DNA of 64,000 nucleotides from Cinnamomum chago (lineage: Eukaryota > Streptophyta > Magnoliopsida > Laurales > Lauraceae). The DNA is taken from contig CP142457.1 in the NCBI GenBank assembly GCA_038049695.1, forward strand, positions 21,776,501 through 21,840,500, in the 5' to 3' direction. Below are positions 4,372 through 39,724 of this stretch, piece after piece. The first letter of the stretch is position 1; each line of letters starts with the position of its first letter. The notes below the pieces were generated by a model. It had not been told where the DNA came from. It was given only the letters and a program-made list of their open reading frames with translations, and ran no database searches. Both the position numbers and the translations under genes were made by a program.

Positions 4372-4781
4372 ACTGCCGGGACAACCCCCTTTTGACAAAA
4401 AATCCAACTTTTGCCATTTCAAAGTTATTTCTTTGGGGGACCTTTTGGCAACTAAATCAAGCTAGGAAAACATGTTTTAAAGATTCTAATGGTTTTTAAA
4501 ACATGACATAAAAAGCCTAAAAAGATTCAAAACTTTTAAAACAAAGGCTTGCTTGATTTCTTGAAAACTCTTTTAAAAAACAAATGCATCCAAGATTTAA
4601 AAACAAATCATGCATAAAACAAGATCTTAAAAACAATGCATGAATAAATCAAGATTTCAAGTTTACTTTAAAACCAATGCAAGTGTGTAAATCAAATGAT
4701 GCTAGAATGAAATGCATCCATCAAATTGCAATCTAGAAAATTCCTAACATCTTCTTTATTGATCAATCATTTTGAATACAA

Positions 4782-10700: not shown

Positions 10701-10732
10701 GGCTTCAGTAGAGGTTTTGATACAGATCCTAG

Positions 10733-10750
10733 TTCCCACAGACGGCGCCA
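10733..10750 (-). other. Primer binding site
   Basis: TGGCGCCGTCTGTGGGAA on the minus strand, two bases after the LTR end (…TTACA). The first nine bases fit the complement of the tRNA-Asp 3' end, but the remainder fits it poorly, so the primer tRNA is uncertain. Confidence 0.75.
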
Positions 10751-10752
10751 AC

Positions 10753-11430
10753 TGTAAGTGCCTAAAAATTACGGACTTAGGTAATGGATGATCAAGCTCC
10801 TGATTTGTGGTTTTAAAGGGAATAAAGGGAAATGATCGAGTCTCCAGTGACCTGAAAGGAAGAAAACAACGGTCAGAGACCCTGGCTATGGGTAGCCGAA
10901 GGTCCTCCGACGATCAAGTTAGTGTATGAACTGGGAGAGAATGGAGAAAGCGAGCTTTTTGAGGGGAGGATCATGCGTACCTTGTAAGGCTTTCCTTCAT
11001 GTAATATATAGACGTGAGGGTCATCATGGTACTGTCCACATGAAGGGATGGGAGTCCCATCAGCGTGTATTCGTACCTCTTGAGTGGGGGTAGGTGAAAA
11101 AAGGGGGTGTCCCATCGGATCATCATCTCATACCTATGGCCCTGAGATAAGGCGTGCTTCTTATCTGGGTTTGGCGCCCACTCCGTCTGTCAGCTTGCCG
11201 TCCGTCGTGGCAGTGCATTTATGGCCGCATTTATGACTGAGTGACAGGGGCCGAGGTCGGGCAGAGGCTGAGACCGAGATCGGAGCCTGTGACGTGGCCG
11301 CCGAGACTCGATCCATGGTTCTTCCGAGATGGCGCTACGGCCGACCTCATGTGGTTTCCGAGACCAAGGTTAAACCGAAACTGGGGATGGGCCCCCGTCC
11401 GATTTAGTGAGCATAAAACGACCCCACACA
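10753..11430 (-). mobile_element. 5' LTR of the Tat element
   Basis: On the minus strand it begins TGTGTGGGGTCG and ends CACTTACA, 678 bp, with a TATA-like TATATATTAC near 11001-11010 followed by about 250 bp to the end. The inner border is fixed by the PBS. The outer border is chosen as the TG nearest to where host-like AT-rich sequence begins, since the partner LTR is off the window and no TSD can be tested (expected duplicate of ATGAT, 11431-11435). Confidence 0.7.
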
Positions 11431-15899: not shown

Positions 15900-16328
15900 A
15901 AAGTAAAGACAGTGTGTATAAGGTGCTTCTCATGGTCCTTCAATACATCTAATGTACCAGTATCATGATCCAGAATCTTACATTCTGATGATCGAGATAA
16001 ATCACACTATCTCATAGTGATTAAAATGCTGCAACCTTGTCAGATGAGGTGTCCAATCTCATCACTGGTTGTGAAGATATTTAAGTATAAGATTTGTAAT
16101 ACATATCTCCTGTATGTGGATCTCATCCATACACACATGTACTACATCTAGTATACTTGTGGACTCCGGTTCAACTCATGAACCATTATGTCATTTGTAT
16201 TGGTTATGTGCAAGTATATAAAACACCATTCATCTCATGAAAGTAAAAACATGAATTGTATTGATAAATAAAGAAATTAATCTATTTATTACATCATATA
16301 CCCTTGGTATTGAGACCATAAACTAACA
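15900..16328 (-). repeat. Partial 3' LTR of copia element A
   Basis: It starts on minus with TGTTAGTTTATGGTCTC at 16328, directly after the PPT (CAAGTGGGAGAT, 16340-16329), and matches the first 430 bp of the element B LTR. It ends at 15900 at a junction with the LTR-like block. Confidence 0.85.
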
Positions 16329-16343
16329 ATCTCCCACTTGGGC

Positions 16344-19300
16344 TCAATGCCAATTAGGATTGCATCTCATGCCCATCCCATCTACATGCTGCTCAAAAAC
16401 CTTGGTGGTCAAAGGCTTAGTAAATGGATCTGCCAGATTGTCTGCAGAGGCTATCTTGGTAATTGCAATATCACCTCTCTGCACAATCTCTCTGACCAAA
16501 TGATACTTCTTCTGTACATGCTTTTGGCTTTTATGGCTTCTTGGTTCCTTGGACTGAGCGACTGCCCCGTTGCTGTCACAGTAAACTGTGAGCGGCTGTC
16601 GTGCCAAAGGTACCACTCCAAGTTCCAGAAGGAAACTTTTGAGGCATACTGCTTCCTTAGCTGCTTCACAAGCCGCTACATATTCAGCTTCAGAAGTGGA
16701 ATCAGCAGTACATTCCTGTTTAATACTCCTCCAGCTGATAGCTCCTCCGCCAAGCATAAACACATAACCAGAGGTAGATTTCCTGGAATCCTTATCTGAC
16801 ATGAAGTCAGAATCTGTGTATCCGACTGGAATCAGCTCATCACTGCCGTAAATCAACATGTAATCTCTAGTCCTTCTCAAGTACTTAAGGGTACATTTTA
16901 CAGCAGTCCAATGGTCAGGACCTGGGTTAGACTGATATCTGCTGACTAAGCCCACTGCATGACAGATATCCGGTCTAGTACATAGCATAGCATACATGAG
17001 GCTACCAACAGCTGAAGCGTATGGAATTGCTCTCATTTGCTCCTTTTCTTCTGGGGTCTTGGGACCCTGATCCTTGGAAAGGTGCACTCCATGCCTGAAA
17101 GGTGTGATACACTTCTTGGAGTCCTGCATAGCAAACCGTACCAGTACCTTATCTATGTAAGCAGTTTGAGAAAAGCCAATCATCCTATTTTTCCTGTCTT
17201 GATGGAGTTTGATCCCTAGGATGTAACTAGCTTCTCCCAAGTCCTTCATATCAAAAGTCTTTGCCAACTAAACTTTTACCGTTGACAACATTCCTATATC
17301 TTTCCCAAGGAGAAGGATGTCGTCGACGTAAAATATCAGAAAAACTACCCTGTCACCTTCATTTTTCATGTACACACATGACTCATCCGAATTTTGACTA
17401 AAACCAAATGATTTGATTGCCCGATCAAAACGGATGTTCCAGCTTCGGGATGCCTGCTTCAGTCCATAAATGGATTTCTGCAGCTTGCAAACTCTTTGCT
17501 TTTGGTTGCTTGCTATAAAACCGGCTGGCTGCATCATATAGATGTCTTCCTCAAGATGGCCGTTGAGAAATGCCGTCTTGACATCCATTTTCCAAATCTC
17601 ATAATCGAGATGAGCCGCAATGGATAAGAGTATCCGGATGGACTTGAGCATGACTACCGGCGAGAAGGTTTCCTCATAATCGATACCCTCTTTCTGAGTA
17701 TACCCTTTCGCAACAAGCCTGGCCTTAAAGGTCTCAACTCTTCCATCTGCTCCTCTTTTTCTCTTGTAGACCCACATGCACCCAATAGGTTTGATATTGG
17801 CAGGCAAGTCCACAAGTGTCCAGACCTAATTAGAGTACATAGACTCCATCTCAGCTTTCATAGCATCTTGCCAATGTCCCGAATCTATGTCATTTATTGC
17901 TTCATCATAGTTACAGGGATCTTGTTCCGGTTCTTCCGGGATTGCCTCGTAAGACTCTCCCAAGAACGAGAACCTATCAGGAGGCCTGATTATTCTCCCA
18001 CTACGACGAGGCACTGGTGTAACTACTGGGTCTGGTATGGGCAGTTCTTCCTCAAGTTCGGTCATGTTTGGATTTGGAATTGATTGTTCTTGAATCTCTT
18101 CCAAGATCACCTTTTCTAAAGATTTCCGGTCCGTCATATAATCTTCCTCCAGAAAAACCGCATTGGTGCTTACTATCACTTTCTGCTCTCTGGGATTATA
18201 GAATAACCAACCTTTAGTTCCTTTGGGATATCCTATAAATGTGCATACTTCCGACTTCGTTTCCAACTTATCCGTCTTTACCTTCAGCACATGTGCCGGA
18301 CAACCCCAAATGTGTAAACGTTGTAGACTAGGCTTTCGCCCAGACCACAATTCCCGGGGAGTCTTAGGTACATACTTAGATGGTACGAGGTTTAATATGT
18401 ACATCGCAGTTTCCAAGGCATGTCCCCAAAAGGATATAGGTAATCCTGAGAAACTCAACATAGACCTGATCATATCTAAAAGAGTCCGGTTCCTTCTTTC
18501 CGCTACTCCATTCTGTTGAGGCATACCAGGAGCAGACAACTGGGATAGAATCCCATTTTCTGATAAGTGTGCCATAAAATCTCCAGACAGATATTCTCCT
18601 CCTCGATCTGATCGAAGAGTCTTGATACTTTTACCTAATTGCTTTTCTGCTTTCGCTCGAAACTCTTTAAACTTTTCAAAAGCCTCGGACTTGCGGTGCA
18701 TAAGGTATATGTATCCATATCTTGAGTAATCATCTGTGAAAGTGATGAAGTACTCATATCCTCCTCTGGCTCTTACATTAATGGGCCCACACACATCAGT
18801 ATGCACTAATTCTAATAAATCTTTGGCCCTATTGCCCTTGGATGAAAAGGGTCTTTTGGTCATTTTGCCTTCCAGACATGATTCACAGACAGGCATTGGT
18901 TCTACAACCAATGAAGGCAAGATACCATCTTTCACTAGCCTGTCAATCCTATTTAGGTTTATATGACCTAGCCTCAAGTGCCAAAGTTTTGCTGGATTAG
19001 ATGAAGGTGACTTTCTCTTTAATGATGGTCTATTAATTATTTCGGTATCATGTATCTCATACATTGTAGGAGTTTATAGATAAAGCCCATTGGTTACCTT
19101 GCCAGAACATATAAAAGTACCGTTTCTCTTTATAACAACTTCAGTACCAAAAGTAATAGAATAACTTTTACTCACCAAACTAGAAACTGAAATTAAATTC
19201 CGTCTTAAAGACGATACATATAGAGTGTCTGACAAAACCAACTTATTATCTTGAAAATATAAAGTAATAACTCCTATTGAGATCGCATCTGCCTTAGCAT

Positions 19301-19487
19301 CAGATCCTACGTTGACAATGATTTCGCCGTCACTGAGTTTCCTGGTTTCCCTGAACCCCTGCAACAAATTACATATGTGATTAGTTGCCCCGGAGTCCAC
19401 ACACCAAGATTCTGAAGTACCAACTGCAAAACTAACTTCAGTAATAAGTGACTCAATCATACCTGAGGTCTTCTTCTTGGACAGATA
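16344..19487 (-). pseudogene. pol: pol of copia element A with nonsense codons
   Basis: One continuous minus-strand frame holds protease (SWCVDSGATNHIC), GAG-pre-integrase (LWHLRLGHINL), integrase core (HTDVCGPI, SDRGGEY, NGVAERRNRT), RT (KTAFLNGHLEEDIYM, FYVDDILLL) and RNase H (YTDSDF, TSEAEYVA, CDSNGA), ending RCNPNWH at 16344. Stop codons interrupt it: TAA 19076-19074, TAG 17828-17826 (CAG in element B) and TAG 17270-17268, in addition to the TAA at 19490-19488 in gag. No frameshift is seen within pol. The order PR-IN-RT-RH marks Ty1/copia. Catalytic motifs are otherwise preserved, so it looks recently inactivated. Confidence 0.9.
19359..19462 (-). other. 104-bp GT-AG intron between gag and protease (absent from element B)
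   Basis: On minus the donor is CAG|GTATGA (starts 19462) and the acceptor TTGTTGCAG|GGG (ends 19359). It contains the protease catalytic DSGA. Element B has exactly CAG|GGG at the equivalent point (27826/27827). Splicing shifts frame and ends the protein ten codons on, giving Gag alone. Gag-only spliced RNAs are known for barley BARE1 and Drosophila copia. Confidence 0.8.
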
Positions 19488-20301
19488 TTATGGACAATTC
19501 CTCTTCCAATGTCCTGTCATACCACAATGGAAACACTTTCCTTTTGTCCCTGCTCCCTTAGCCTTGCCAACACCACCATTAGGACCATTCTCCGCCTTAG
19601 GACCCTTCGGAACTGATTTCTTCTTGCCTTTCCGCCCTTTGCCTTTCAGTTTGGACTTGGCAAATGACTTTTCTGTCATCAGGGTAGTTGGCTTTTTCTT
19701 CTTAATGCCTCCAGTCACCACCAGCTGGCTAGACAACTCAGCCAGAGTCAGATTCATTTTTATTCATGTTGTAATTAACCTTGAAATTGTTGAATGACTC
19801 TGGTAATGACTCAAGTATTATGTCAATCTGCGATTCTGCATCAATCGCAGCCCCCGGTACATCTAACTCATTCAATGAGTCCATCATTTTCAACATATGG
19901 TCCTGTACCGGTGTGCCTTCAGCCATCTTGGTGCTTATAAGCACCCTCCTAGCAACCTGTCTAGCAGGCCTACCCTGTTCCGCAAACATCTCCTTTAAGT
20001 TTGATATAATATCATATGTAATCTTAAAGGATTGATGTTGGTGTTGTAAAACACTAGACATAGATGCCTGTATGTAACATCTGGCCATCTCATCGTCTTT
20101 GGCCCACTTAGTGTAAAGTTCCTTTTCTTCCTGTAATGCTTCTGGCAATGGCTCATCAAGGAGGGGTTTGGTAAGGACATATTTATATCCTGAAGCTGTC
20201 AGGGCAATATCTAGGTTCCGTTTCCAGTCTACATAATTGGATCCCACCAATTTATTCTGGTTGAGGATGGTCGCAAGTGGATTGAAAGTGTTTGAATTCA
20301 T
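19488..20301 (-). pseudogene. gag: gag of copia element A, one frameshift
   Basis: Starts at ATG 20301 (MNSNTFNPLATILNQNKLVG). The capsid-type gag domain has YVDWKRNLDIAL and ESLPESFNNFKVNYN. A run of five A (about 19755) instead of four in element B shifts the frame. In the second frame a Lys-rich linker leads to the zinc knuckle CFHCGMTGHWKRNC, and then a TAA at 19490-19488 where element B has GAA. Gag would form the virus-like particle and bind RNA. The upstream ATG at 20328 is possible but less conserved in context. Confidence 0.9.
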
Positions 20302-22069
20302 GCTGAAAATACTGTAGCACATAACCATACATTCAATTAATGAATTTTAAATGACTTTAGGGTTTAGTATTCTACCAAATTTATATGGAATCCTCATAAC
20401 CATTAAATTCAAAATACATCGAAATCCCAATCCCCGGTGTATGCCTCCTTGGGGAGTGCGAATACCACCTAGATTGGTGCGGATCAAAGTTGGTCAAAAT
20501 TAGGATGAAGACTAACTTTCCATGATCCCCTTCATTCATTATTATCTAGGTATCTCATACCAAATAATGAATGACTCCCGATTAACTTCGGTTTCTAAAA
20601 TAGATGAGGCAAATCCTTGGGGATACTACATCATTATTTTAGTTAAGTGTGACCCACCAACTAGCATTGCATGACAACCGTTTCGAGCAGCTCCTCCTTG
20701 GGGAGTGGGCCCCCGCCCCGTCTCACCAACACTATCCATAGGAGATCCATATCTAGTAACCAGACAAGTAAAAGCCCTCCGTGGGGAACGGCCATACTCG
20801 AGATGGCGCAAGGCTAATACTTTCCTTACAATGGACCTATGGTGGAAAACCATGGGGATTTCTAAATATAAATGCCCCGCTCCCACTTAATATTTTAGAA
20901 TTGAGGATTCCTTTGTAAGGTATTAGGGCCCACATGTAAACATATGAATATCAAATCATCTCATGATATGATTCTAAGATTGGTTCCAAGTCAAGTTATT
21001 TTAAGGAAAGTCTAGTTTCTAAATTAGTGTTACCAATGTGTCCATCTCATGGGTCATCAACACTAATTAGAACTCTTTCCAATTAATTTGATTTGACCAA
21101 TTTTAGTAACTTGCTATGTTTGGATCAGATCTGGAATTATTCTAAATTAAGCATGCATCCATAAATAAAAAGTGCAAAAAATAGAAACTAGTCCTCTCCT
21201 CCACATGGCCCAAGCGGAATAGACTTCTTGGACTTGTAGACTTTCCAAAGCTTTGGAATTCCTTTAACTCTTTGGGAAACTCCAGAACTCTCTTGGTAAT
21301 CTTCAAACTCTTTGATTAGGAGTCCAACATAGCTTTCTTTGTTCGTCTCGGATATCGCCAGAATTTACAAATTTAGGAAAAATTACATAAATTCCTATGC
21401 CTCAATTATGAGACTTACATGGTAATCTAAACATGGAAATAAAAGGGCTATAGGGAAATTCATCATGCCTTGCCCTTTTACGGAAAACCAAGGAAACCAT
21501 GATGCCCTTTACATTTAGCCTTAAATAAACCAAACACCATAAATAGAAAGCAAAAGACTTGTGGGCCATATGGAGAGGACTTGATCATCTGCAAGTTAGT
21601 ATCTCATACAACCATACAAATCACAGAAACAGGCTGCCAAATAATGCTGGAAAAATAAGACATTAGAAAAGACCCGAAACTGAAAAATCAGGTTTCTGTA
21701 ACTTGCTACGCAGTTGTCTCGGTCGACAGGCCAGGGGGGCTCGGTCGACCGACCTGCAAGTCAGCCGGTTGACCGAGCACGGGGGCCAAGTCGACCGGAC
21801 TGACGAATTTCTGCAACTTGGGTTTTCTGTTTCGTGTCCATTCTTTCCCAAATCACTTACAAAGTGTCCCAATGGCTTCCTATGATCCTTCCATCATTAT
21901 TAAACCCTTTTGTGACTATCCAAACATGAATCTACTATCAAACCAAGTAAATACATCAAAACTGATCCTTACATAGCCCTTGCTTCATCTTCTTCGCATC
22001 TCATGCAAAGATCAGAGCAAGCTTGCTGTTCTAACATGATTAGAGATGAGGTTAGTCTCTTATACCAAT
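20302..22069 (-). other. Long untranslated leader of copia element A
   Basis: It lies between the degenerate PBS (TTGGTATAAGAG on minus, 22067-22056; expected TTGGTATCAGAG) and gag. It holds a palindrome cluster (21718-21800), two or three CTCCTTGGGGAG hairpin-like words (about 20444, 20612, 20695) and an 86-codon open frame at 20886-20626 (MGAGHLYLEIPMVFHHRS...) that is also open in element B. A packaging/dimerisation role is plausible but not shown. Confidence 0.6.
21718..21800. repeat. Palindrome cluster in copia A leader
   Basis: Four sites, GGTCGACA, GGTCGACC, GGTTGACC and AGTCGACC, are spaced 15-25 bp apart. The first is preceded by GCAGTTGTCTC, so that 18 bases are identical to those at 4325-4342 in the unrelated SIRE-like LTR. 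Confidence 0.8.
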
Positions 22070-23472
22070 TGTTGGAATATAAGTGGGCCTTCCAGACATG
22101 TTTCAAAACTTTTGATCCACTTGATGCAGGGATCAATTGTCTAGAATGCAACAAACCCAATCCAGGATGCAATTCCCTCAATCTCATAGCCATGTACAGC
22201 AACATATACTATCTATAAGATAGAAAACAACACATAAACAAGCTACCACGAAATCCACAACATATAAGGATGTAGATATACCTTTGGAGCTTTGTTGTAC
22301 TCTAATGGAGGATTTGATTTCTTTACTTTGGTGATGAACAACTTCACAATCCAAATCAGAATCTTCAACTCCTTTTGATCTTCCACGCTATGTCCCGTAT
22401 TAGATCACTTTTCTCAAGAAGATGGTGGAATCCTCAAGAGAAAACCCTACTATTAACTCTAAGGAACCAAAGGTGAAAGAGAGGGGAACTTTGAGAAGAA
22501 GAAGACTTGCACAACTCTTGCACAAGGGGGCTGAAAGTGCTCTTATGATTTTGCACGAATTTGAGAGGATTATTCCTCTATTTATAGACCTCCATAACTC
22601 CTCTTTTCCTATTTGAAATAGAAGTTTAACTCCCATTACAAATTAGTAAACATCTCCCTTACTAATTGCCATAGAAGTCTTACTTCCACAACTATTAGTT
22701 GCTTCCTCCTTTCTAATTAAAATAGAAGTCCTACTTCCATTATTAATTAGTAGCTTACCATTACCACTATTAGAAGTCTCACTTCTAATAGAAATAGTAA
22801 CCTTCCTTTTAGAGTTCAAGTAGAATTAGTATCTTTCTAATAAATTGGGCTAGCGTGGGGACCACTAGGGATTCCTTAGAAAGCTGGCTCCAACTGGGAC
22901 ACGCGACCCCACATCTCATGTGCAATCCGGGCCCACAGTTAATTGCAAATAACTCCACTATATAAATGCAATTGCACTCCAGTCTTAGGAATATATTTCA
23001 ATGAAGATCCTAAACTTCCCAATTACCACAAGTAGGCCCCTCTATCTATATCCATGGATCAAATGGACCTGTCTACCAAATTAGATCCATATCTTATTAT
23101 CCTTGAGCCCCAATTAATTATAATGATCATTTGGTACCGATCCAATTAACTCTTAATCGGACTGGGTGCGCACTTACCAATGATAAATCCATTAATTGAC
23201 ACAAGGGGATATTAAAGATAGATTCTATCTTGACTATTGAATGTTCCCACAACTCTACTATCAAGTACCCAAATCACCGAGGTGTTGACCTACAATTTGC
23301 CTCACTCATTGGTGACTCAGAGCAAATGAATAGATAGAAACTTGAGTTCATTAATGTCTCAGGATTATGAGCCTATTGCTAGGGAATTATGAGAGCAGAC
23401 CTTAAAGTAAAGACAGTGTGTATAAGGTGCTTCTCATGGTCCTTCAATACATCTAATGTACCAGCATCATGA
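22070..23472 (-). repeat. Partial 5' LTR of copia element A
   Basis: It ends on minus with …ATATTCCAACA at 22070, before the PBS. It keeps the TATA box (TATAAATAG on minus, 22586-22578), R and U5, but loses its first 360 bp or so where the plus-strand LTR of element B begins at 23473. Confidence 0.85.
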
Positions 23473-25232
23473 TGTTAGATTTTATGGTCTCAATACCAGT
23501 ATATGATGAATAGATTGATTAATTTCTTTATTTATCAATATAATCATGCTTTCCTTTTATGAGATGAATGGTGATTTATTACTTCATGCACATGACCAAT
23601 ATATATGACATAATGGTTCATGAGATGAACCGGATCCCATTAATATATTAGATGTGATATATGTATATGGATGAGATCCACATACGGGAGATATGTGTCA
23701 CAAATCTTATACTTAAAATATCTTCACAACCAGTGATGAGATTGGACACCTCATCTGACAAGGTTGCAGCATTTTGCTCACTATGAGATAGTGTGATTTA
23801 TCTCGATCATCAGAATGTAAGATTCAGGATCATGGTGCTGGTACATTGGATGTATTAAAGGACCATGAGAAGCACCTTATACACTGTCTTTATTTTAAGG
23901 TCTGCTCTCATAATTTCATAGCAATATGCTCATAATCCTGAGACATTAATGAACTCAAGTTTCTATCTATTCATTTGCTTTGAGTCACCAATGAGTGAGG
24001 CCAATTGTAGGTCAACACCTCGGTGATTTGGGTACTTGATAGAAGAGCCGTGGGAACATTCAATAGTCAAGATGGAATCTATCTTTAATATCCCCTTGTG
24101 CCAATTAATGAATTTATCATTGGTAAGTGCGCACCCATTCCGATTAAGAGTTAATTGGATCGGTACCATATGATCGTTATAATTAATTGGGGCTCAAGGA
24201 TAATAAGATATGGATCTAATTTGATGGACAGGTCCATTTGATCCATGGATATAGATGGAGGGGCCTACTTGTGGTACTGTGGAAGTTTAGGGTCTTCATT
24301 GTAATTTATTCCTAAGACTGGAGTGCAATTGCATTTATATAGTGGAGTTATTTGCAATTAACTGTGGGCCCGGATTGCACATGAGATGTGGGGTCGCGTG
24401 TCCCAGTTGGAGCCAGCTTTCTAAGGAATCCCTAGTGGTCCCCACGCTAGCCCAATATATTAGAAAGATACTAATTCTACTTAAACTCTAAAAGGAAGGT
24501 TACTATTTCTATTTGAAGTGAGACTTCTAATTGTGGTAATGGTAATCTACTAATTAATAATGGAAGTAGGACTTCTATTATAATTAGAAAGGAGAAAGCT
24601 ACTAATAGTTGTAGAAGTGAGACTTCTATGGCAATTAGTGAGGGAGATGTTTACTAAGTTGTAATGGGGAGTTAAATTTCTATTTCAAATAGAAAAAGAG
24701 GAGTTATGGAGGGCTATAAATAGAGGAATACTCCTCTCTAATTCGTGCATAATAATAGAGCACTTTTCAGCCCCTTGTGCAAGAGTTGTACAAGTCTTCT
24801 TCCTCTCAAAGTTCCCCTCTCTTTCACCTTTGGTTCCTTAGAGTTACTAGTAGGGTTTTCTCTTGAGGATTCCACCATCTTCTTGAGAAAAGAGATCTAA
24901 TACGGGACATAGCGTTGGAAGATCAAAAGGAGTTGAAGATTCTGATTTGGATTGTGAAGTTGTTCATCACCAAAGTAAAGAAATCAAATCCTCCATTAGA
25001 GCACAACAAATCTCCAAAGGTATATCTACATCCTTGTATGTTGTGTATTTCGTGGGAGCATGTTTATGTTCTGTTTTCTATCTTCTAGATAGTAGTTGTT
25101 GCTGTACATGGCTATGAGATTGAGGAAATTGCATCCTGGATTGGGTTTGTTACATTCTAGACATTTGATCCCTACATTAAGTGGGTCAAAAGTTTTTGAA
25201 ACCTGTCTGGAAGGCCCACCTATATTCCAACA
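23473..25232 (+). repeat. 5' LTR of copia element B
   Basis: TG...CA ends, 1760 bp, TATAAATAG at 24715-24723. It is followed by the PBS TTGGTATCAGTGCC (25235-25248), one base off the usual initiator-Met complement (TGGTATCAGAGCC). Confidence 0.9.
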
Positions 25233-25248
25233 ATTGGTATCAGTGCCT

Positions 25249-26988
25249 AACCTTATCTCTAATCATGTTAGACCAGCAAGCTTGCTCTGATCTTTGCATG
25301 AGATGTGAAGACGATGAAGCATTGGCTATGTTAGGATCAGTTTTGTTGATTTTACTTGGTTTGATGGTAAATTCATGTTTGGATAGTCACAAAAGGGTTT
25401 AATCATGATGGAAGGACCATAGGAAGCCATTGGGACACTTTGGAAGTGATTTGGAGAAGAACAGAAACGAAACAGAAAACCCAAGTTGCAGAAATTCGAC
25501 AGACGGGTCGACCTCCCCCGTGCCCGGGTCGACCTGGTGACTGCAGGCGGGTCGACCTGCCCCTCCTGGCAGGTCGACCCGACCTTCTGTGCAGAATTCT
25601 GCAGAATTTGTTTTTCAAGTTTCGGGTCTATTTATTCTTCCTATTTTTCCAGCATTGTTTGGCAGCCTATGTTTGTGATTTGTATGGTTGTATGAGATAC
25701 TAACTTGCAGATGATCATGTTCTCTCCATATGGCCCATAAGTCTTTTGCTTTCTTTTATGGTGATTGGTTTATTTAAGGCTAAATGTAAAGGGCGTCATG
25801 GTTTCCTTGGTTTCCCGTGAAAGGGCAAGGCATGATGAATTTCCCAATAGCCCTTTTAATTCCAGTTTTAGATTACCATGTAAGTCTCATATTTGAGGCA
25901 TAGGAATTTATGTAATTTTTCTAAATTTATAAATTCTGGCGATGTCCGAGACGAAGAAGGAAAGCGATGTTGGACTCCTAATCAAAGAGTTTGAAGATTA
26001 CCAAAAGAGTTCTGGAGTTTCCCAAAGAGTTTGAGGAATTCCAAATTTTTGGAAAGTCTAGAAGTCCAAGAAGTCTATTCCGCTTGGGTCATGTGGAGGA
26101 GAGGACTAGTTTCTATTTTTGCAATTTCTATTTATGGATGCATGCTTAAATTAGAAAAATTCTAGATATGATCCAAACATAGCAAGTTACTAAAATTGGT
26201 CAAATCAAATTAATTTTTGGAAAGGGTTCTAATTAGTGTTGATGACCCATGAGATGGACACATTGGTAACACTAATTTAGAAACTGAACTTTCCTTAAAA
26301 TAACTTGACTTGGAACCAATCTTAGATCATATCATAAGATGATTTGATGAATACATGTGGGCCCTAATACCTTATAAAGAAATCCTCAATTCTAAAATAT
26401 TAAGTGGGAGCGGGGCATTTATATTTAGAAATCCCCATGGTTTTCCACCATAGGTCCATTGTAAGGAAAGTATTAGCCTCGCGCCATCTCGAGTATGGCC
26501 GTTCCCCATGGAGGGCTTTTACTTGTCTGGTTACTAGATATGGATCTCCTATGGATAGTGTTGGTGAGACGGGGCAGGGGCCCACTCCCCAAGGAGGAGC
26601 TGCTCGCAACGGTTGTCATGCAATGCTAGTTGGTGGGTCATACTTAACTAAAATAATGATGTAGTATCCCCAAGGATTTGCCTCATTTATTTTAGAAACC
26701 AAAGTTAATCGGGAGTCATTGATTATTTGGTATGAGATACCTAGATAATAATGAATGAAGGGGATCATGGAAAGTTAGTCTTAATTCTAATTTTGACCAA
26801 CTTTGATCCGCACCAATCCAGGTGGTATTCGCACTCCCCAAGGAGGCATACCCCGGGGATTGGGATTCCGATGTATTCTAAATTTAATGGTTATGAGGAT
26901 TCCATATAAATTTGGTAGAATACTAAACCCTAATGTCATTTAAAATTCATTAATTGAATGTATGGTTATGTGCTACAATATTTTCAGC
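25249..26988 (+). other. Untranslated leader of copia element B
   Basis: Counterpart of the A leader: palindrome cluster at 25505-25584, CTCCCCAAGGAG words near 26585 and 26834, and an open 86-codon frame (26404-26664) differing from that of A at four residues. No other gene seen. Confidence 0.6.
25505..25584. repeat. Palindrome cluster in copia B leader
   Basis: Four GGTCGACC sites (three with flank GGGTCGACCT, one with AGGTCGACCC). Same position in the leader and same number as in element A, but the spacers between them differ markedly. Confidence 0.85.
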
Positions 26989-29900
26989 ATGAATTCAAAT
27001 ACTTTCAATCCACTTACGACCATCCTCAACCAGAATAAGTTAGTGGGATCAAACTATGTAGACTGGAAACGGAACCTGGATATTGTCCTGACAGCTTCAG
27101 GATACAAATATGTCCTTACCAAACCCCCCCTTGATGAGCCATTGCCAGAAGCATCACAGGAAGAAAATGAACTTTACACCAAGTGGGCCAAAGACGATGA
27201 GATGGCCAGATGTTACATACAGGCATCTATGTCTAGTGTTTTACAACACCAACATCAATCCTTTAAGACTGCATATGATATTATATCAAACTTAAAGGAG
27301 ATGTTTGCGGAACAGGGTAGGCCTGCAAGACAGGCTGCTGTGAGGGTGCTTATAAGCACCAAGATGGCTGAAGGCACACCAGTACAGGACCATATGTTGA
27401 AAATGATGGACTCATTGAATGAGTTAGATGTACTGGGGGCTGCGATTGATGTAGAATCGCAGATTGACATAATACTTGAGTCACTACCAGAGTCATTCAA
27501 CAATTTCAAGGTTAATTGCAACATGAATAAAATGAATCTGACTCTGGCTGAGCTGTCTAGCTAGCTGGTGGTGACTGAAGGCATTATGAAGAAAAAACCA
27601 ATTGCCTTGATGACAGAAAAGTCATTTGCCAAGTCCAAACCGAAAGGCAAAGGGCGGAAAGGCAAGAAGAAATCAGTTCCGAAGGGTCCTAAGGCGGAGA
27701 ATGGTCCTAATGGTGGTGTTGGCAAGGCTAAGGGAACATGGACAAAAGGAAAGTGTTTCCATTGTGGTATGACAGGACATTGGAAGAGGAATTGTCCAGA
27801 ATATCTGTCTAAGAAGAAGACCTCAGGGGTTCAGGGAAACCAGGAGACTCAGTGACGGCGAAATCATTGTCAACCTAGGATCTGATGCTAAGGCGGATGC
27901 GGTTTCAGTAGGAGTTATTACTTTATGTTTTCAAGATAATAAGTTGGTTTTGTCAGACACTCTTTATGTACCATCTTTAAGACGGAATTTAATTTCAGTT
28001 TCTAGTTTGGTGAATAAAAGTTATTCTATTACTTTTGGTATTGAAATTTTCATAAAGAGATACGGTACTTTTATGTATTCTGACAAGGTTATCAATGAAA
28101 TTTATTTGTTAATCCCACAATGTATGAGATACATGATACTGAAACAATTAATAGACCATCATTAAAGAGAAAGTCACCTTCATCTAATCCAACAAAACTT
28201 TGGCACTTGAGGCTAGGTCATATAAACCTAAATAGGATTGACAGGCTAGTGATAGATGGTATCTTGCCTTCATTGGTTGTAGAACCAATGCATGTCTGTG
28301 AGTCCTGTCTGGAAGGCAAAATGACCAAAAGACCCTTTTCATCAAACGGCAATAGGGCCAAAGATTTATTGGAATTAGTGCATACTGATGTGTGTGGACC
28401 CATTAATGTCAGGGCCAGAGGAGGATATGAATACTTCATCACTTTCACAGATGATTATTCAAGATATGGATACATATACCTTATGCACCGCAAGTCCGAG
28501 GCTTTTGAAAAGTTCAAAGAGTTTCGAGCGGAAGCGGAAAAGCAATTAGGTAAAAGTATCAAGACTCTTCGATTAGATCGAGGAGGGGAATATCTCTCTG
28601 GTGATTTAATGGGATACTTATCAGAAAATGGGATTCTATCCCAGTTATCTGCTCCTGGTATGCCTCAACAGAATGGAGTAGCGAAAAGAAGGAACCAAAC
28701 TCTTTTAGATATGATCAGGTCTATACTGAGTTTTTCAGGATTACCTATATCCTTTTAGGGATACGCCTTGGATACTGCGATGTACATACTAAACCTCGTA
28801 CCATCTAAGTCTATACCTAAGACTACCCAGGAGTTGTGGACCGGACGAAAGTCTGGTCTACAACATTTACACATTTGGGGTTGTCCGGCACATGTGCTAA
28901 AGGTTAAGACGGATTAGTTGGAAGCGAAGTTGGAAGTATGCACGTTTGTAGGATATCCTAAATGAACTAAAGGTTGGTTATTCTATAATCCCAGAGAGCA
29001 AAAGTGATGGTGAGCACTAATGCGGTTTTTCTGGAGGAAGATTATATGATAGACCGGAAACTTTTAGAAAAAGGTGATCTTGGAAGAAATTCAAGAGCAA
29101 ACAATTCCGAATCCTAGTATGATCGAACCTAAGGAAGAAGCGCCCTTACCTAACCCAGTAATTACACCGATGCCTTGTCATAGTGGGAGTTAGGCCCCCT
29201 GACAGGTTCTCGTTCTTCGGAGAGTCTTACGAGGTAGTCCCGGAAGAACCGGAACAAGATCCCTGTAACTATGATGAAGCAATTAATGACATTAATTCGG
29301 GACATTGGCAAGATACTATGAAAGCTGATATGGAGTCTATGTACTCTAATCAGGTCTGGACACTTGTGGACTTGCCTGCCAATATCTAACTTATTGGGTG
29401 CAAGTGAGTCTACAAGAGAAACAGAGAACCAGATGGAAGAGTTGAGACCTTTAAAGGTTAGGTTTGTTGCGAAAGGATATACTCAGAAAGAAGATATCGA
29501 TTATGAGGAAACCTTCTCGCTGGTAGCCATGCTCAAGTCCATCAGGATACTCTTATCCATTGCGGCTCATCTCGATCATGAGATTTGGCAAATGGATGTC
29601 AAGATGGGTTTCTCAACGGCCATCTTGAGGAAGACATCTATATGATGCAGCCAAACGGTTTTATAGCTAAACAACCAAGAGCAAAGAGTTTGCAACATGC
29701 AGATGTCCATTTATGGACTGAAGCAGGCATCCCGAAGCAGGAACATTCGTTTTGACTAAGAAATGAAGTCAGTTGATTTTTGTCAAAAACCGGATGAGTT
29801 ATGAGTGTACATGAAAAGTAAGGGAGGCAGGGTAATTTTTCTAGTCGACGACATCCTTCTCCTAGAGAGTGGTATATGGATGTTGTCAACAGTAAAATGT

Positions 29901-30735
29901 TTAATTGGCTAAGACTTTTGATATGAAGGACATGGGAGAAGCCAGTCGCATCCTAGGGATCAAACTCCATTGAGACCAGATAAATAGGATGATAGGCTTA
30001 TCCCAATATGCATACATAGATAAGGTATTCATACGGTTTGCTATGCAAGACTCCAAGAAGGGTATTACACCTTTCAGGAATGGAATGCACCTTTCCAAGA
30101 ATCAGTGTCCCAAGACACCTGAGGAAAAGGAGCAGATGAGGTGGATACCATACGCTTCGGGTGTTGGTAGCCTCATGTATGCTATGCTATATACTATACC
30201 GGATATCGGTGATGCATTGGGCTTAGTCAGCAGATATCAGTCTAACCCAGGTCCTAACCATTGGACTGCTATAAGATGTGTTATCAAATCCTTGAGAAGG
30301 ACTAGAGATTACATATTGATTTATGGCAATAATGATTTGATTCTAGTCGGTTACACATATTCTGACTTCATGTCAGATAAGGATTCCAAGATATAAACTT
30401 CTGGGTATGTGTTTATGCTATAGCTGCTTGAGAAGCAACTAAAGAAGCAGATTGGCTCAAAAGATTCCTTATGGAACTTGGAGTGGTATTTTTGGCAAGA
30501 CAGCTGCTCACAGTTTACTGAGATAACAACAGGGCAGTCGATAAGTCCAAGGAACCCAGAAGCCAAAAACATGTACAGAGGTAGTTACACATGGTCGGAA
30601 AGATTATGCAGAGAGGTGATACTGCTATCACCTAGATAAACTCTGCAGACAATCTGGGACATCCATTTGACTACCAAAGTTTTTGAGCAACATGTAGATG
30701 GGATGGGCATGAGATGCAACCCTGACTGGCATTGA
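26989..30735 (+). pseudogene. Decayed gag-pol of copia element B
   Basis: gag starts at ATG 26989. A TAG at 27562-27564 replaces CAG. The frame resumes through the zinc knuckle CFHCGMTGHWKRNC to a TGA after the spliced-type ending (27855). The protease active site is missing because the 104-bp intron is gone (junction 27826/27827). Integrase (28120-28758) keeps HTDVCGPI but has changed LRLDRGGEY and VAKRRNQT. RT and RNase H (29200-30735) carry several stops and frameshifts, and RT retains only part of its motif around 29845-29870. It ends with RCNPDWH and TGA. It cannot make functional protein. Confidence 0.9.
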
Positions 30736-30750
30736 GCCCAAGTGGTAGAT

Positions 30751-32510
30751 TGTTAGATTTTATGGTCTCAATACCAGTATATGATGAATAGATTGATTAA
30801 TTTCTTTATTTATCAATATAATCATGTTTTCCTTTCACGAGATGAATGGTGATTTATTACTTCATGCACATGACCAATATATATGACATAATGGTTCATG
30901 AGATGAACCGGGTCCCATTAATATATTAGATGTGATATATGTATATGGATGAGATCCACATACGGGAGATATGTGTCACAAATCTTATACTTAAAATATC
31001 TTCACAACCAGTGATGAGATTGGACACCTCATCTGACAAGGTTGCAGCATTTTGATCACTATGAGATAGTGTGATTTATCTCGATCATCAGAATGTAAGA
31101 TTCTGGATCATGGTGCTGGTACATTTGATGTATTGAAGGACCATGAGAAGCACCTTATACACTGTCTTTATTTTAAGGTCTGCTCTCAAAATTTCCTAGC
31201 AATAGGCTCATAATCCTGAGACATTAATGAACTCAAGTTTCTATCTATTCATTTGCTTTGAGTCACCAATGAGTGAGGCCAATTGTAGGTCAACACCTCG
31301 GTGATTTGGGTACTTGATAGAAGAGCTGTGGGAACATTCAATAGTCAAGATGGAATCTATCTTTAATATCCCCTTGTGCCAATTAATGAATTTATCATTG
31401 GTAAGTGCGCACCCATTCCGATTAAGAGTTAATTGGATCGGTACCATATGATCATTATAATTAATTGGGGCTCAAGGATAATAAGATATGGATCTAATTT
31501 GGTAGACAGGTCCATTTGATCCATGGATATAAATGGAGGGGCCTACTTGTGGTACTGTGGAAGTTTAGGGTCTTCATTGTAATTTATTCCTAAGACTGGA
31601 GTGCAATTGCATTTATATAGTGGAGTTATTTGCAATTAACTGTGGGCCCGGATTGCACATGAGATGTGGGGTCGCGTGTCCCAGTTGGAGCCAGCTTTCT
31701 AAGGAATCCCTAGTGGTCCCCACGCTAGCCCAATATATTAGAAAGATACTAATTCTACTTAAACTCTAAAAGGAAGGTTACTATTTCTATTTGAAGTGAG
31801 ACTTCTAATAGTGGTAATGGTAAGCTACTAATTAATAATGGAAGTAGGACTTCTATTTTAATTAGAAAGGAGAAAGTTACTAATAGTTGTGGAAGTAAGA
31901 CTTCTATGGCAATTAGTAAGGTAGATGTTTACTAATTTGTAATGGGAGTTAAACTTCTATTTCAAATAGGAAAAGAGGAGTTGTGGAAGGCTATAAATAG
32001 AGGAATACTCCTCTCAAATTCGTGCATAATTAATAGAGCACTTTCAGCCCCCTTGTGCAAGAGTTGTACAAGTCATCTTCCTCTCAAAGTTCCCCTCTCT
32101 TTCACCTTTGGTTCCTTAGAGTTACTAGTATGGTTTTCTCTTGAGGATTCCACCATCTTCTTGAGAAAAGAGATCTAATACGGGACATAGCGTTGGAAGA
32201 TCAAAAGGAGTTGAAGATTCTGATTTGGATTGTGAAGTTGTTCATCACCAAAGTAAAGAAATCAAATCCTCCATTAGAGCACAACAAAGCTCCAAAGGTA
32301 TATCTACATCCTTGTATGTTGTGTATTTCGTGGGAGCATGTTTATGTTCTGTTTTCTATCTTCTAGATAGTAGTTGTTGCTGTACATGGCTATGAGATTG
32401 AGGGAATTGCATCATGGATTGGGTTTGTTGCATTCTAGACAATTGATCCCTGCATCAAGTGGGTCAAAAGTTTTTGAAACCTGTCTGGAAGGCCCACCTA
32501 TATTCCAACA
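30751..32510 (+). repeat. 3' LTR of copia element B
   Basis: 1760 bp, preceded by a degraded PPT (CAAGTGGTAGAT, 30739-30750; AAGTGGGAG in element A). TATAAATAG at 31992-32000. Its end abuts satellite DNA at 32511. Confidence 0.9.
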
Positions 32511-33565
32511 TTTCGGGTGTCCTTGTCTTGTCTTACCCCTTTAAATCCATTTGAAGGGATTTTGGGACGGGATGCGATTTTTAGGATATATTGAGCTACT
32601 TTTTGGTTTAAAACGGATTTCGGGCGAACCTTGGGTATGGAAAACACTTTCATGGAGTCCAGTGCTTGTAAAGGTGAAAACCAGAACTTCGTACGGGTCG
32701 TACAGTACTTTGGTACGAAAACACAATATATACGGCTCTAGAAATTTGTTGACTCCACATTGCGATTTTCAGGATATTTCGAGCTACTCTTCGGTTTACT
32801 ACGTGTTTCGGGCGAATCTTGGGTATGGAAATCACTTTCGGGGAATTCAGTGTTTGCAAAGGCGAAAATCGGAACTTCGTGCGAGGGTCGTACGGTACTT
32901 TTGAACAAAAACATAATCTGTGCGGCTCTAGAAAGTTGTTGACTCAACACTATGTTTCATGCGACCCTTGGTCCAAACACACCCTTTAGAAAAATCTGGG
33001 ATTGCGTTTTACTCTAAATTGGGTTTCGGGTGTCGCTGTCTTTCCTTACGCCTCTAAATCCATTTGAAGGGATTCTGGGTTGAGATGCACTTTCTACGGT
33101 CATTTGGTACGAAAACACAATCTATGCGTCTCTAGAATATGGTTGACTCTACACTGTGTTTTAATGCGACTCTGCGTCCAAAGACTCCCACTAGAAAATT
33201 CCGGGATCACGTTTTACTCTAGAAGGGGTTTCGGGTGTCCTTCTCTTGTCTCACGCCTCGAAATCCATTTGAAGGTATTCTGGGTTGAGATGCACCTTTT
33301 AGGATATTTCGAGCTACTTTTCGGTTTAAAACGGGTTTCGGGCGAACCTTGGGTAAGGTAAACACTTCCGGGGAGTTCTGTGTTTGTGAAGGCGAAAATC
33401 CGAACTTCGTACGGGTCGTACGTTGCTTTTGTACGAAAACAGAATCATTGCGGCTCTAGGAAATTGTTGACTCCAGACTATGTTTCTTGCGACTCTAGGT
33501 CCAAAGACACCCTCTAGAAAAATTCGGGATCACGTTTTAATCTAAAAGGAGTTTCAGGTGTCCTT
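32511..33565 (+). repeat. Satellite array, heterogeneous forward block, part 1
   Basis: Monomers begin about TTTCGGGTGTCCTTGTC and contain AAATCCATTTGAAGG, CGAGCTACTTTTCGGTTTAA, GTACGAAAACA and GTTGACTC. The starts at 32511, 33025 and 33229 are irregularly spaced, so some monomers are deleted or fused. The block directly abuts copia element B. Confidence 0.9.
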
Positions 33566-34208: not shown

Positions 34209-37200
34209 TCCTTGTCTCGTCTTACAACTCTAAATCCATTAGAAAGGATTTTGGGTTGAGATGCGATCTTTTAGGATGTTTCGTGCTACTTTTCGGTATA
34301 AAACAGGTTTCGGGCGAACCTTGGGTATGGAAAACACTTTCGTGGAGTTCAATGTTTTTCAAGGCGAAAACCCGAACTTCGTGCGTGTCGTACGTTACTT
34401 TTGTACGAAAATAGAATCCTTGCAGCTAGAGGAAATTGTTGACTCCACACTGTGTATCTTACGACTCTGGGTCCAAGGACTCCCTCTAGAAAAATTCAAG
34501 ATCGTGTTTTAATCTAATATGCGTTTCGGGTGTCCTTGTCTTGTCTTACGCCTCTAAATCCATTTGAAGGGATTTTGTATCGGCATGCGATTTTTAGGAT
34601 ATTTTGAGCTACTTTTTGGTTTAAAACGGGTTTCGGGCGAACCTTGGGTATGGAAAAAACTTTTGGGGAGTCCAGTGCTTGTAAAGGTGAAAACTAGAAC
34701 TTCGTACGGGTCGTACAGTACTTTTGTACGAAAAGACAATATATGCGGCTCTAGAAAATTGTTGACTCCACACTGTGTTTCATTTGACACTGGGTCCGAA
34801 GGCTTACTTCAGAAAAATTTGGGATCAGGTTTTAATCTAAAAAGGGTTTCGGGTGTCCTAATCTTGTCTTACGCCTCGAAATCCATTTGAAGCTATTCTG
34901 GGTTGAGACGCGCTTTTTAGGACATTTCAAGCTACTTTTCGGTTTAAAACTGTTTTCGGGCGAAACCTGAGTATGGAAATCATTTTCGAGGAGTTCAATG
35001 TTTCTAAAGGCGAAAACCAGAACTTCGTGCGAGGGTCGTACAGTACTTTTGAAAGAAAACACAATCTACGGGGCTCTAGAAAATTGTACTGTGTTTCATG
35101 TGACTCTGGGTCCAAAGACTCCCATTAAAAAAATATGGGATTGCGTTTTACTCTAAAAGGGGTTTCGGGTGTCCTTGTCTTTTCTTATGCCTACAAATCC
35201 ATTTGAAAGGGATACTGGGATGAGATGCGCTTTTTAAGATTTTTCGAGCTACTTTTCGGTTTAAAACGAGTTTCGGCCGAATCTAGGGTAAGGAAAACAC
35301 TTTCGGGGAGTTCAATGTTTATAAAGGCGAAAACCCGAGGTTCGTGCGGGTCGTACGGTACTTTAGTATGAAAACACAATCAATGCGGCTCTCAAAAATT
35401 GTTGACTCCGCACTGTGTTTTAATGCGACTCTGGGTCCAAAGACTCCCTCTAGAAAAATTCAGGATCTCGTTTTACTCTAGAAGGGGAAAATTTCGGGTG
35501 TGCTTGTCTTGTCTCATGCCTTGAAATCAATTTTAAACTTATTCTGGGTTGAGATGCGCCTTTTGAGATATTTCGAGCAACTTTTCGGTTTAAAACGGGC
35601 TTCGGGCGAGCCTTGGGTATGGTAAACACTTTCGGGGAGTTCTCTGTTTGTAAAGGAGAAAACCCGAACTTCGTGCGGTCGTACGGTACTTTTGTACTAA
35701 AACAGAATCTTTGCGGCTCTAGGAAATTGTTGACTCCACACTGTGTTTCTTGCGACTCTGTGTCCAAAGGCAACCTCTAGAAATATCCGAGATCAAGTTT
35801 TAAACTAAAAAGTGTTTCGGGTGTCCTTGTGTTGTCTTACGCCTCTAAATCCATTTGAAGGGATTTTGGCTACTTTTCGGCTTAAAACTGTTATCGGGCG
35901 AAACCTGGGTATGGAAATCATTTTCGGGGAGTTCAATGTATCTAAAGGCGAAAACCCGAACTTCGTGCGAGGGTTGTACGATACTTTTGAAAGAAAACTC
36001 AATCTACGCGGCTCTAGAAAATTGTTGACTCAACACTGTGTTTCATGTAACTCTAGGTCCAAAGACTCCCTTTAAAAACATATGGGATTGCGTTTTACCC
36101 TAAAAGGGGTTTCGGGTGTCCTTGTCTTTTCTTACGCCTACAAATCCATTTGAAAGGGATACTGGGATGAGATGCGCTCTTTAAAATATTTCGAGCTACT
36201 TTTCGGTTTAAAATGGGTTTAGGGCGAATCTTGGGTAAGGAAAACACATTCGGGGAGTTCAGTGTTTGTAAAGGCGAAAACCCGAACTTCGTGCGGGTCG
36301 TACGGTCCTTTAGTACGAAAACACAATCTATGCGGCTCAAGAATATGGTTGACTCTACACTGTGTTTTAATGCGACTCTGGGTCCAAAGACTCCCTATAG
36401 AAAAATTCAGGATCGCGTTTTACACTAGAAGGGGAAAGTTTCTAGTGTGCTTGTCTTGTCTCACACCTCGAAATCCATTTTAAAGGTATTCTCGGTTGAG
36501 ATGCGCCTTTTGAGATATTTCGAGCTACTTTTCGGTTTAAAACTGGTTTTGGGCGAACCTTGGGTATGGTAAACACTTTCGGGGAGTTCTGTGTTTGTAA
36601 AGGCGAAAGCCCGAACTTCGTGCTGGTCGTACGGTACATTTGTACGAATACACAATCTATGCGGCTATAGAAAATTGTTGACTCTACACTGTGTTATAAT
36701 GCGACTCTGGGTCCAAAGACTCCCTCCAGAACAACCTAGGATCGCGTTTTACTCTAGAAGGGGTTTCGGGTGTCCTTCTCTTGTCTCGCCCCTCGAAATC
36801 CATTTGAAGGTATTCTGGGTTGACATTCGCCTTCTAGGATATTTCAAGCGACTTTTCGATTTAAAACGGGTTTCGGGCGAACCTTGGGTATGGTAAACAC
36901 TTTCGTGGAGTTCTCTGTTTGTAAAGGAGAAAACCCGGACTTCGTGCGGGTCGTACGGTACTTTTGTACTAAAACAGAATCTTTACGGCTCTAGGAAATT
37001 GTTGACTCCACACTGTGTTTCTTGCGACTCTGTGTCCAAAGGCAACCTCTAGAAATATTCGGGATCGAGTTTTAAACTAAAAAAGGTTTGGGGTGTCCTT
37101 GTGTTGTCTTACGCCTCTAAATCCATTTGAAGGGATTTTTGGATGAGATGCGATTTTTAGGATATTTCGAGCTACTCTTCGGTTTAGTACGTGTTTCGGG

Positions 37201-39724
37201 CGAATCTTGGGTATGGAAATCACTTTCGGAGAGTTTAGTGTTTGCAAAGGCGAAAACCGAAACTTCGTGGGAGGGTCGTACGGTACTTTTGAACGAAAAC
37301 ATAATCTGTGCGGCTCTAGAAAGTTGTTGACTCAACACTGTGTTTCATGCTACCCTTGGTCCAAACACACCCTTTAGAAAAATCTGGGATTGCGTTTTAC
37401 TCTAAATGGGGTTTCGGGTGTCCCTGTCTTTCCTTACGCCTCTAAATCCATTTGTAGGGATTCTGGGTTGAGATGCTCTTTTTAAGATATTTCGAGCTAC
37501 TTTTCGGTTTAAAACGGGTTTCGGGCGAATCTTGGGTAAGGAAAACACATTCGGACAGTTCAGTGTTTGTAAAGGCGAAAACCCGAGGTTCGTGCGGGTC
37601 GTACGGTGCTTTGGTACGAAAACACAATCTATGCGTCTCTAGAATATGGTTGACTCTACACTGTGTTTTAATGCGACTCTGCGCCCAAAGACTCCCTCTA
37701 GAAAGTTCTGGGATCACGTTTTACTCTATAAGGGGTTTCGGGTGTCCTTTTCTTGTCTCACGCCTCGAAACCCATTTGAATGTATTCTGGGTTGTGATGC
37801 ACCTGTTAGGATATTTCGAGCTACTTTTCGGTTTAAAACGGGTTTCGGGCGAACCTTGGGTAAGGTAAACAGTTCTGGGGAGTTCTGTGTTTGTGAAGGC
37901 GAAAACCCGAACTTCGTACGAGACGTACGTTGCTTTTGTACGAAAATAGAATCATTGCAGCTCTAGGAAATTGTTGACTCTACACTCTGTTTCTTGCGAC
38001 TCTGGGTCCAAAGGCACCCTCTAGAAAAATTCGGGATCACGTTTTGATCTAAAAGGAGTTTCGGGTGTCCTTGTCTCGTCTTACAACTCTAAATCCATTC
38101 GAAAGTATTTTGGGTTGAGATGCGATCTTTAGCATATTTCGTGCGGGTCGTACGGTACTTTAGTACGAAAACACAATCAATGCGGCTCTATAAAATGGTT
38201 GACTCTACACTGTGTTTTAATGCGACTCTGGGTCCAAAGACTCCCTCTAGAAAAATTCAGGATCGTGCTTTACTCTAGAAGGGGAAAGTTTCGAGTGTGC
38301 TTGTCTTGTCTCACTCCTCGAAATCCATTTAAAGGTATTCTGGGTTGAGATGCGCCTTTTGAGATATTTCGAGCTACTTTTCGGTTTAAAACGGGTTTCA
38401 CGCGAACCTTGGGTATGGTAAACACTTTCGGGGAGTTCTGTGTTTGTAAAGGCGAAAACCCGAACTTCGGGCCGGTCGTACGGTACTTTTGTACGAATAC
38501 ACAATCTATGTGACTCTAGAAAATTGTTGACTCTACACTGTGTTATAATGCGACTCTGGGTCCAAAGACTCCCTCCAGAACAATCTAGGATCGCGTTTTA
38601 CTCTATAAGGGGTTTCGGGTGTCCTTCTCTTGTTTCACCCCTCGAAATCCATTTGAAGGTATTCTGGGTTGACATTCGCCTTCTAGGATATTTCGAGCGT
38701 CTTTTCTGTTTAGAACGGGTTTCGGGCGAACCTTGGGTATGGTAAACACTTTCGGGGAGTTCTCTGTTTGTAAAGGAGAAAACCCGAACTTCGTGCGGGT
38801 CGTACGGTACTTTTGTACTAAAACAGAATCTTTGCGGCTCTAGGAAATTATTGACTCTGCACTGTGTTTCTTGCGACTCTTTGTCCAAAGGCAGCGTCTA
38901 GAAATATTCGGGATCAAGTTTTAAACTAAAAAAGGTTTCGGGTGTCCTTGTCTTGTCTTAAACCAAAGACTCCCTCTAGAAAATTTCGGGATCACGTTTT
39001 ACTCTAGAAGGGGTTTCGGGTGTCCTTCTCTTGTCTCACGCCTTGAAATCTATTTGAAGGTATTCTGGGTTGAGATGCACCTTTTAGGATATTTCGAGCT
39101 ACTTTTCGGTTTAAAACGGGTTTCGGGCGAACCTTGGGTAAGGTAAACACTTCCGGGGAGTTCTGTGTTTTGAAGGCGAAAACCCGAACTTCGTACGAGT
39201 CGTACGTTGCTTTTGTACAAAAACAGAATCATTGCGGCTCTAGGAAATTGTTGACTCCACACTATGTTTCTTGCGACTCTGCGTCCAAAGGCACCCTCTA
39301 GAAAAATTCGGGATCACGTTTTGATCTAAAAGGAGTTTCGGGTGTCCTTGTCTCGTCTTACAACTCTAAATCCACTCGAAAGGATTTTGGCTAAAGATGC
39401 GATCTTTAGGATATTTCGTGTTACTTTTCGGTATAAAACAGGTTTCGGGTGAACCTTGGGTATGGAAAACACTTTCGGGCAGTTCAATCTTTATAAAGGC
39501 GAAAACCCGAACTTCGTGCGGGTCGTCCGGTGCTTTTGTACGAAAACACAATCTATACGTCTCTAGAATATGGTTGACTCTACACTGTGTTTTAATGCGA
39601 CTCTGGGTCCAAAGACTCCCTCTAGAAAATTCCAATATCACGTTTTACTCATGAAGGGGTTTCGGGTGTCCTTCTCTTGTCTTACGCCTCAAAATCCATT
39701 TGAAGGTATTCTGGGTTGAGATGC
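34209..39724 (+). repeat. Satellite array, heterogeneous forward block, part 2
   Basis: About 17 monomers. Successive TTTCGGGTGTCC-type starts are mostly 316-328 bp apart, with shortened units of 295, 231 and 77 bp (near 36110, 38290 and 39015). The three monomer types of the right block cannot be followed in regular order here, and sequence divergence between neighbours is higher. No coding gene seen. Confidence 0.9.

Follow-up and report, generated by a model that had tools for sequence, protein, structure and literature searches.

A window of 64,000 nucleotides from the genome of Cinnamomum chago (contig CP142457.1, positions 21,776,501 to 21,840,500) holds two Copia elements in head-to-head orientation, A on the minus strand and B on the plus strand (Table 1). 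B lacks a 104-bp segment that A carries with the borders of an intron, and the same loss is found at six further loci of the genome. We conclude that B and these six loci are very probably Copia elements whose interior was copied from RNA that had lost the 104-nt intron through gag-only splicing. The two long terminal repeats (LTRs) of B, about 1.76 kb each, are 97.5% identical (Kimura two-parameter (K2P) distance 0.0254) and are mutual sisters in the LTR tree (support 97/91); a grass substitution rate of 1.3e-8 per site and year would put the age of B at about one million years. Features of BARE1-like Ty1/copia elements found here are a Copia-type gag with a CCHC knuckle, LTRs of the form TG..CA and, adjoining the 5′ LTR, a primer-binding-site-like motif, TGGTATCAG, which we take to match the initiator-Met tRNA. 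The likeness in gag, LTR size and intron suggests that A and B belong to a BARE1-like Ty1/copia family.

An earlier reading of the window (the original prediction) had held that B lacks exactly positions 19359–19462 of A, and the alignment of the two elements bears this out. A reads CCTCAG/GTATGATTG...TAATTTGTTGCAG/GGGTTC across 19462–19359 (104 nt, minus strand), the segment opening with GTATG and closing with GTTGCAG before GGGTTC, and B reads CCTCAG/GGGTTC, with its junction at 27826/27827. The global alignment of A and B has 7590 columns and 38 indels, two of which measure at least 20 bp: the 104-bp segment and an unrelated 73-bp indel (at B 30418). As had been proposed, the lost segment includes the protease active site—the D-S-G codons of A, which we take to be the active site of a copia-type protease—and the loss shifts the frame, so that past the junction B encodes GVQGNQETQ, nine residues, before the tenth codon, a stop located just past the CCHC zinc knuckle. 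The in-frame TAG within the gag of B (Table 1) is a point missing from that earlier reading.

Table 1. Features of the two Copia elements, in window coordinates
Feature	Position	Strand	Remarks
Copia element A (intron-carrying)	15900..23473	-	LTRs truncated at both ends; 5′ LTR cut where B starts
104-nt facultative intron of A (by sequence), GT...AG	19359..19462	-	U-rich: 36.5% T versus 19.2% in flanks
CTAAT, branch-point-like, in the intron of A	19380..19384	-	22 nt from acceptor; same place in L001
D-S-G codons (protease active site) within the intron of A	19389..19397	-	read from sequence
Copia element B (intron-less)	23473..32510	+	two complete LTRs, without target-site duplication
5′ LTR of B	23473..25232	+	TGTTAG...CCAACA; primer-binding-site-like TGGTATCAG adjoins
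gag of B	27001..27826	+	Retrotran_gag_2 (Pfam); one in-frame TAG at 27562-27564
CCHC zinc knuckle, Gag of B	27748..27801	+	zf-CCHC 8.5e-06, residues 62-79 of the piece starting at 27565
Exon-exon junction CAG/GGG in B, 104 bp missing	27826..27827	+	comparison with A
3′ LTR of B	30751..32510	+	purine-rich tract precedes

Judged by its sequence, the 104-bp segment is a conserved facultative intron. Among 31 copies examined from the window and its genome, it measures exactly 104 nt, runs from GT to AG and occupies the same place in all 28 that are readable, A included; the other three have no readable upstream exon. Further kin, fetched later, have the same length in 11 of 12 cases (5/6, 3/3 and 3/3), with L059 off by one base. 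Relatives were also sought elsewhere, with none found among viral contigs and plasmids and one among genome contigs: L001 (BMWJ01000027.1, from a Streptomyces clavifer assembly), a Copia element of plant type that has a frame of 1341 codons and a gag protein 58% identical and is probably plant contamination of the bacterial assembly. At the corresponding place L001 has a U-rich GT–AG segment, again exactly 104 nt long, with CTAAT at an equal distance from the acceptor. In barley, passages of PMC3735527 report that splicing removes 104 nt (CAG/GTAT..CAG/GA) from BARE1 RNA where the protease domain begins, so that only Gag is encoded. Because the segment is present in L001 and reportedly in BARE1, we read changes between the two states as losses.

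The host genome (1.06 Gb, 14 contigs) was searched with six junction queries, namely B at 301 and 80 bases and the intron-less copies L015, L012, L018 and L013 at 301 bases each. The best 40 of 1,565–1,961 candidates were scored per search, and the ten intron-less places obtained are a lower bound. Every search gave the identical places, at least ten, that run contiguously across the junction, and the other 30 of each search break there; among the matches listed, 159 distinct places are broken at the junction, and in 148 of them the upstream exon is also seen, 80–180 bases off. The ten places reduce to seven loci, with three forming one 7,241-bp tandem on contig C5 and two on C3 sharing an LTR. 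In all ten the junction is identical, the loss falling exactly at the GT–AG splice sites of the element, and none of the ten has other borders. Sorting family members by presence or absence of the 104 bp, as the original prediction had suggested, therefore shows the same loss at seven loci rather than a unique deletion, though microhomology does flank the junction. Seven loci per about 1,950 unverified candidates comes to about 0.4%, a rough figure and not a rate.

The settings of these loci differ. At C5:53218600-53243000 (L015–L017), near-identical intron-less units form an array, LTR-int-LTR-int-LTR-int-LTR, which was amplified by unequal exchange rather than retrotransposition; its outer LTRs are flanked by CTTTC on both sides, and the outer 5′ LTR has A instead of T as its first base. 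Like target-site duplications are found at three intron-carrying kin (GTCAG, CTAGT and ATTTC). The outer LTR pair of the array has a K2P distance of 0.0595, and the LTRs of L010 one of 0.039 (892 columns). The LTRs of B are complete, as predicted, but no target-site duplication accompanies them: the left end (window 23460–23480) joins the LTR of A, truncated at LTR position 357, with CATGA as the flank, and the right end (window 32505–32530) joins satellite DNA with TTTCG, both LTR ends being exact and sharing no duplication. With the LTR of A on one side and satellite on the other, we take B to have been rearranged after or during insertion, and its two ends look as if they derived from two target sites or arose by recombination between elements. 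The intron-less loci other than B and the C5 array are truncated or rearranged. L010, the intron-less element on C1, whose own 5′ LTR starts at LTR position 868, is followed at about 9421–9901 of its sequence by an inverted piece of an LTR from the same family (LTR positions 866–394), a head-to-head layout resembling that of A and B.

Several lines of evidence indicate that the losses occurred separately. First, the fullest exon tree, built from 49 rows (8 intron-less and 41 intron-carrying) and 1120 columns around the junction, with the junction itself excluded, requires seven changes for the intron-less state, all forced by strongly supported branches; L016 and L017 (tandem copies of L015), L001 (too distant) and L027 and L038 (upstream exon lacking) were left out. 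A 39-row tree likewise gives seven forced changes, and the number is still seven after the addition of L047–L056, which makes up the 49 rows. Second, in approximately unbiased (AU) tests, for which the groups were named after the trees had been seen, one clade of all intron-less rows is rejected (p-AU 7e-53 with 39 rows and 1e-47 with 49), as is a clade of L013 and L018 (3e-5, 49-row tree); in an earlier tree of six changes, L012+L014 with L011 (5e-48) and L013+L015+L018 (6e-4) are rejected too. Third, B and L010 as a clade are rejected with 29 rows and 2347 columns (p-AU 0.0013) and in the LTR tree (5e-117), where the LTRs of B fall inside an intron-carrying clade and those of L010 elsewhere. 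Because the split between B and L010 is the only one that is weak in the 49-row alignment, and it is strong by LTRs, the losses number at least six and most likely seven. The original prediction had left it to a tree whether intron-less copies would form one clade or be scattered; they are scattered, with seven forced changes for seven loci.

The sequence around the junction bears on how the intron-less state arose at so many places. One ancient spliced insertion could have sufficed if short-tract gene conversion or template switching then spread its intron-less state to the other subfamilies, and inter-subfamily recombination does occur: B has a patch at 28106–28145 from another subfamily, and in L018 the LTR lies closer to the main clade while the interior comes from a divergent subfamily. 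Against such spread, B and L010 have the local allele at all 14 near-fixed diagnostic sites found at +21 to +201 of the junction, and for most intron-less copies the 100-bp flanks are no less similar to intron-carrying kin than to other intron-less copies. L015 and L012 retain the exon ends of their own kin, CCTAAG being common to L015 and the intron-carrying L058, and CCTCAA to L012 and its intron-carrying kin L063. Conversion would, in addition, still require one spliced insertion as its start, and we consider a single event spread in this way very unlikely.

Random repair would need no splicing at all: a deletion between two CAGG repeats, by microhomology or slippage, could remove the same segment. 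CAGG stands at both ends, giving four bases of microhomology in the kin of B and allowing the deletion in B to be placed over four bases, and the A/B alignment also contains the 73-bp indel, which is without GT–AG borders. A four-base shift is, however, what splice sites of the form CAG/GT...CAG/G always permit. A allows 13,025 deletions of 20–500 bp with at least 4 bp of microhomology, 215 of them readable as GT..AG; the observed deletion is one in that 13,025, yet it is found at seven loci on separate branches. For the losses in L012 and L014, the kin L063, with its CCTCAA exon end, offers only a single base of microhomology. Further, across 31 loci from gag to integrase, no other gap of at least 15 columns recurs between subfamilies: besides the intron, the gaps of at least 15 core columns shared by several loci are a 165-bp deletion, present in one subfamily, and gaps where the ends of truncated copies are misaligned (L012 and L014, whose rows stood one base out of register, were set aside in this comparison). 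Random repair as the rival to splicing is strongly disfavoured, and we assign it a very small probability.

Trees with fewer rows gave a different picture. A first tree of 29 rows required three changes, with six divergent copies on one side of a branch; the single intron-less clade that this suggested was undone by denser kin. Those six copies as a clade had a p-AU of 0.24 once L001 was added and were later split by added kin. The early clustering is explained by the B-based search having sampled few intron-carrying kin, as a contiguous intron-less match outranks a split one; the searches with L015, L012, L018 and L013 supplied such kin, and the count of changes went from three to six to seven. 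L013 and L018 had been candidates for a propagated pair, with a 165-bp integrase deletion in common (at about 5265 in L013 and about 5125 in L018), and were split by the intron-carrying L066 and L068, which have the same deletion (both at about 1110). This deletion marks one subfamily, in which at least two copies keep the intron. The flanks of L013 and L018 have pieces of other repeats in common.

A propagating, protease-less and non-autonomous intron-less lineage, for which the clustering in the smaller trees and the common integrase deletion of L013 and L018 had spoken, is the least probable account, given that with intron-carrying kin added there are seven changes for seven loci, L013+L018 is rejected and L066 and L068 have the same deletion. 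No unlinked intron-less sister loci were found, the only sisters being tandem (three on C5, two on C3), and unlinked copies from one defective ancestor were not seen in the final trees among the seven loci found. Of the original prediction for B, the descent from a spliced gag-only RNA agrees with a product that is the one expected from splicing and that recurs at seven loci; the claim that B had founded a lineage has to be given up.

In the mechanism that we propose for copying from spliced RNA, a BARE1-like Copia element would be transcribed and part of its RNA spliced at CAG/GTAT...CAG/GG, as reported for barley BARE1, with loss of the protease active site and a shift of frame that would leave Gag only. 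Such RNA would occasionally enter a particle and be reverse transcribed, whole or partly via template switching with co-packaged unspliced RNA, and the resulting DNA would become part of a genomic LTR element, as seen in the intron-less elements with LTRs and in the one array with a 5-bp duplication. The spliced RNA might have been copied whole, might have switched templates with unspliced RNA, or might have given a complementary DNA that converted a resident copy. For BARE1, passages of PMC3735527 report that polyadenylated RNA, the spliced form included, lacks R, and that the RNA found in particles was exclusively non-polyadenylated; should both apply here, they would favour template switching. 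The events would have taken place in separate subfamilies, and the resulting copies, which did not visibly multiply except by tandem duplication, are best read as dead on arrival.

A number of points weigh against copying from spliced RNA. Splicing of the 104-nt intron in C. chago is itself something that we infer from the sequence. A spliced RNA without R, as in BARE1, could yield complete LTRs only through template switching or if the transcript were laid out differently. Only the C5 array shows a clean insertion, and conversion of a resident element would leave the same; B is without a target-site duplication, and for B alone, given the four-base range of placement, a microhomology-mediated deletion may account for the loss. 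The patch in B is a sign of recombination between subfamilies, the downstream 100-bp flank of L014 differs from that of another intron-less copy by one base less than from any intron-carrying one, and a few other flanks tie. Finally, with 49 rows a clade of B and L010 withstands the AU test (p-AU 0.09), the smaller exon trees giving 0.036 and 0.031.

The remainder of the window holds other repeats. Tandem-repeat arrays occupy 34209–39724 and 42216–60485, with a unit of about 320 bp by self-match offsets and two opposite orientations, and the stretch at 2549–4592 recurs at 60485–62588 (89%). On the minus strand, a 1400-codon frame of Gypsy type at 4782–8984 encodes an aspartyl protease, a reverse transcriptase, two RNase H-type domains and an integrase; by its second RNase H domain we take it to be possibly Tat/Ogre-like. 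Adjoining it, also on the minus strand, is a 642-codon frame at 8985–10913 that has no Pfam match.

For retroviruses as for LTR elements, it is an open question how a single transcript can act as message and as genome. Work on the packaging of spliced RNA exists for retroviruses, and PMC12789967 lists titles on it among its references. The presence of six or seven independent spliced copies within a single plant genome indicates that RNA gets through after splicing and leaves a countable trace, and the question becomes testable in any assembled plant genome. The barrier that divides RNA to be translated from RNA to be copied seems to leak. We think it reasonably likely, going further, that spliced BARE-type gag-only RNA is regularly packaged and reverse transcribed at a low rate, that the separation of translation and replication RNAs is leaky, and that the intron is a natural genome-wide recorder of this in many plants. 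Full-text searches of an open-licence library, which lacks most subscription papers, showed no report of integrated gag-spliced Copia copies.

The closest known systems share parts of this behaviour. BARE1 has the same single gag-pol frame, a 104-nt intron where the protease begins, with a CAG/GTAT donor and a CAG/G acceptor, and a frameshift that brings a stop soon after Gag (PMC3735527); here, by contrast, seven loci hold DNA copies without the 104 nt. Passages of the same source argue that spliced BARE1 RNA is not replicated and propose separate RNA pools, one reason being that spliced DNA copies could not be amplified, and our finding is at odds with this view. BARE2 resembles the present case in that defective Copia copies are mobilised by the proteins of another element, but it is described there as a propagating subfamily with a deletion of the gag start, whereas the intron-less copies here are isolated. 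In Arabidopsis, EVADE produces shGAG, a Copia gag-only RNA made by splicing out the protease region (PMC8892269; reviewed in PMC12786077); the passages of these two sources that bear on it do not mention integrated spliced copies. The SpIREs of human LINE-1, as described in passages of PMC5860796, are genomic copies of spliced retrotransposon RNA, detected with junction probes, recurrent and mostly evolutionary dead ends. LINE-1 is a non-LTR element copied at its target, unlike the LTR/Copia elements here, in which the splice is one that makes gag and reverse transcription would, by family, take place in particles; the intron-less copies of C. chago would be the LTR/Copia counterpart of SpIREs.
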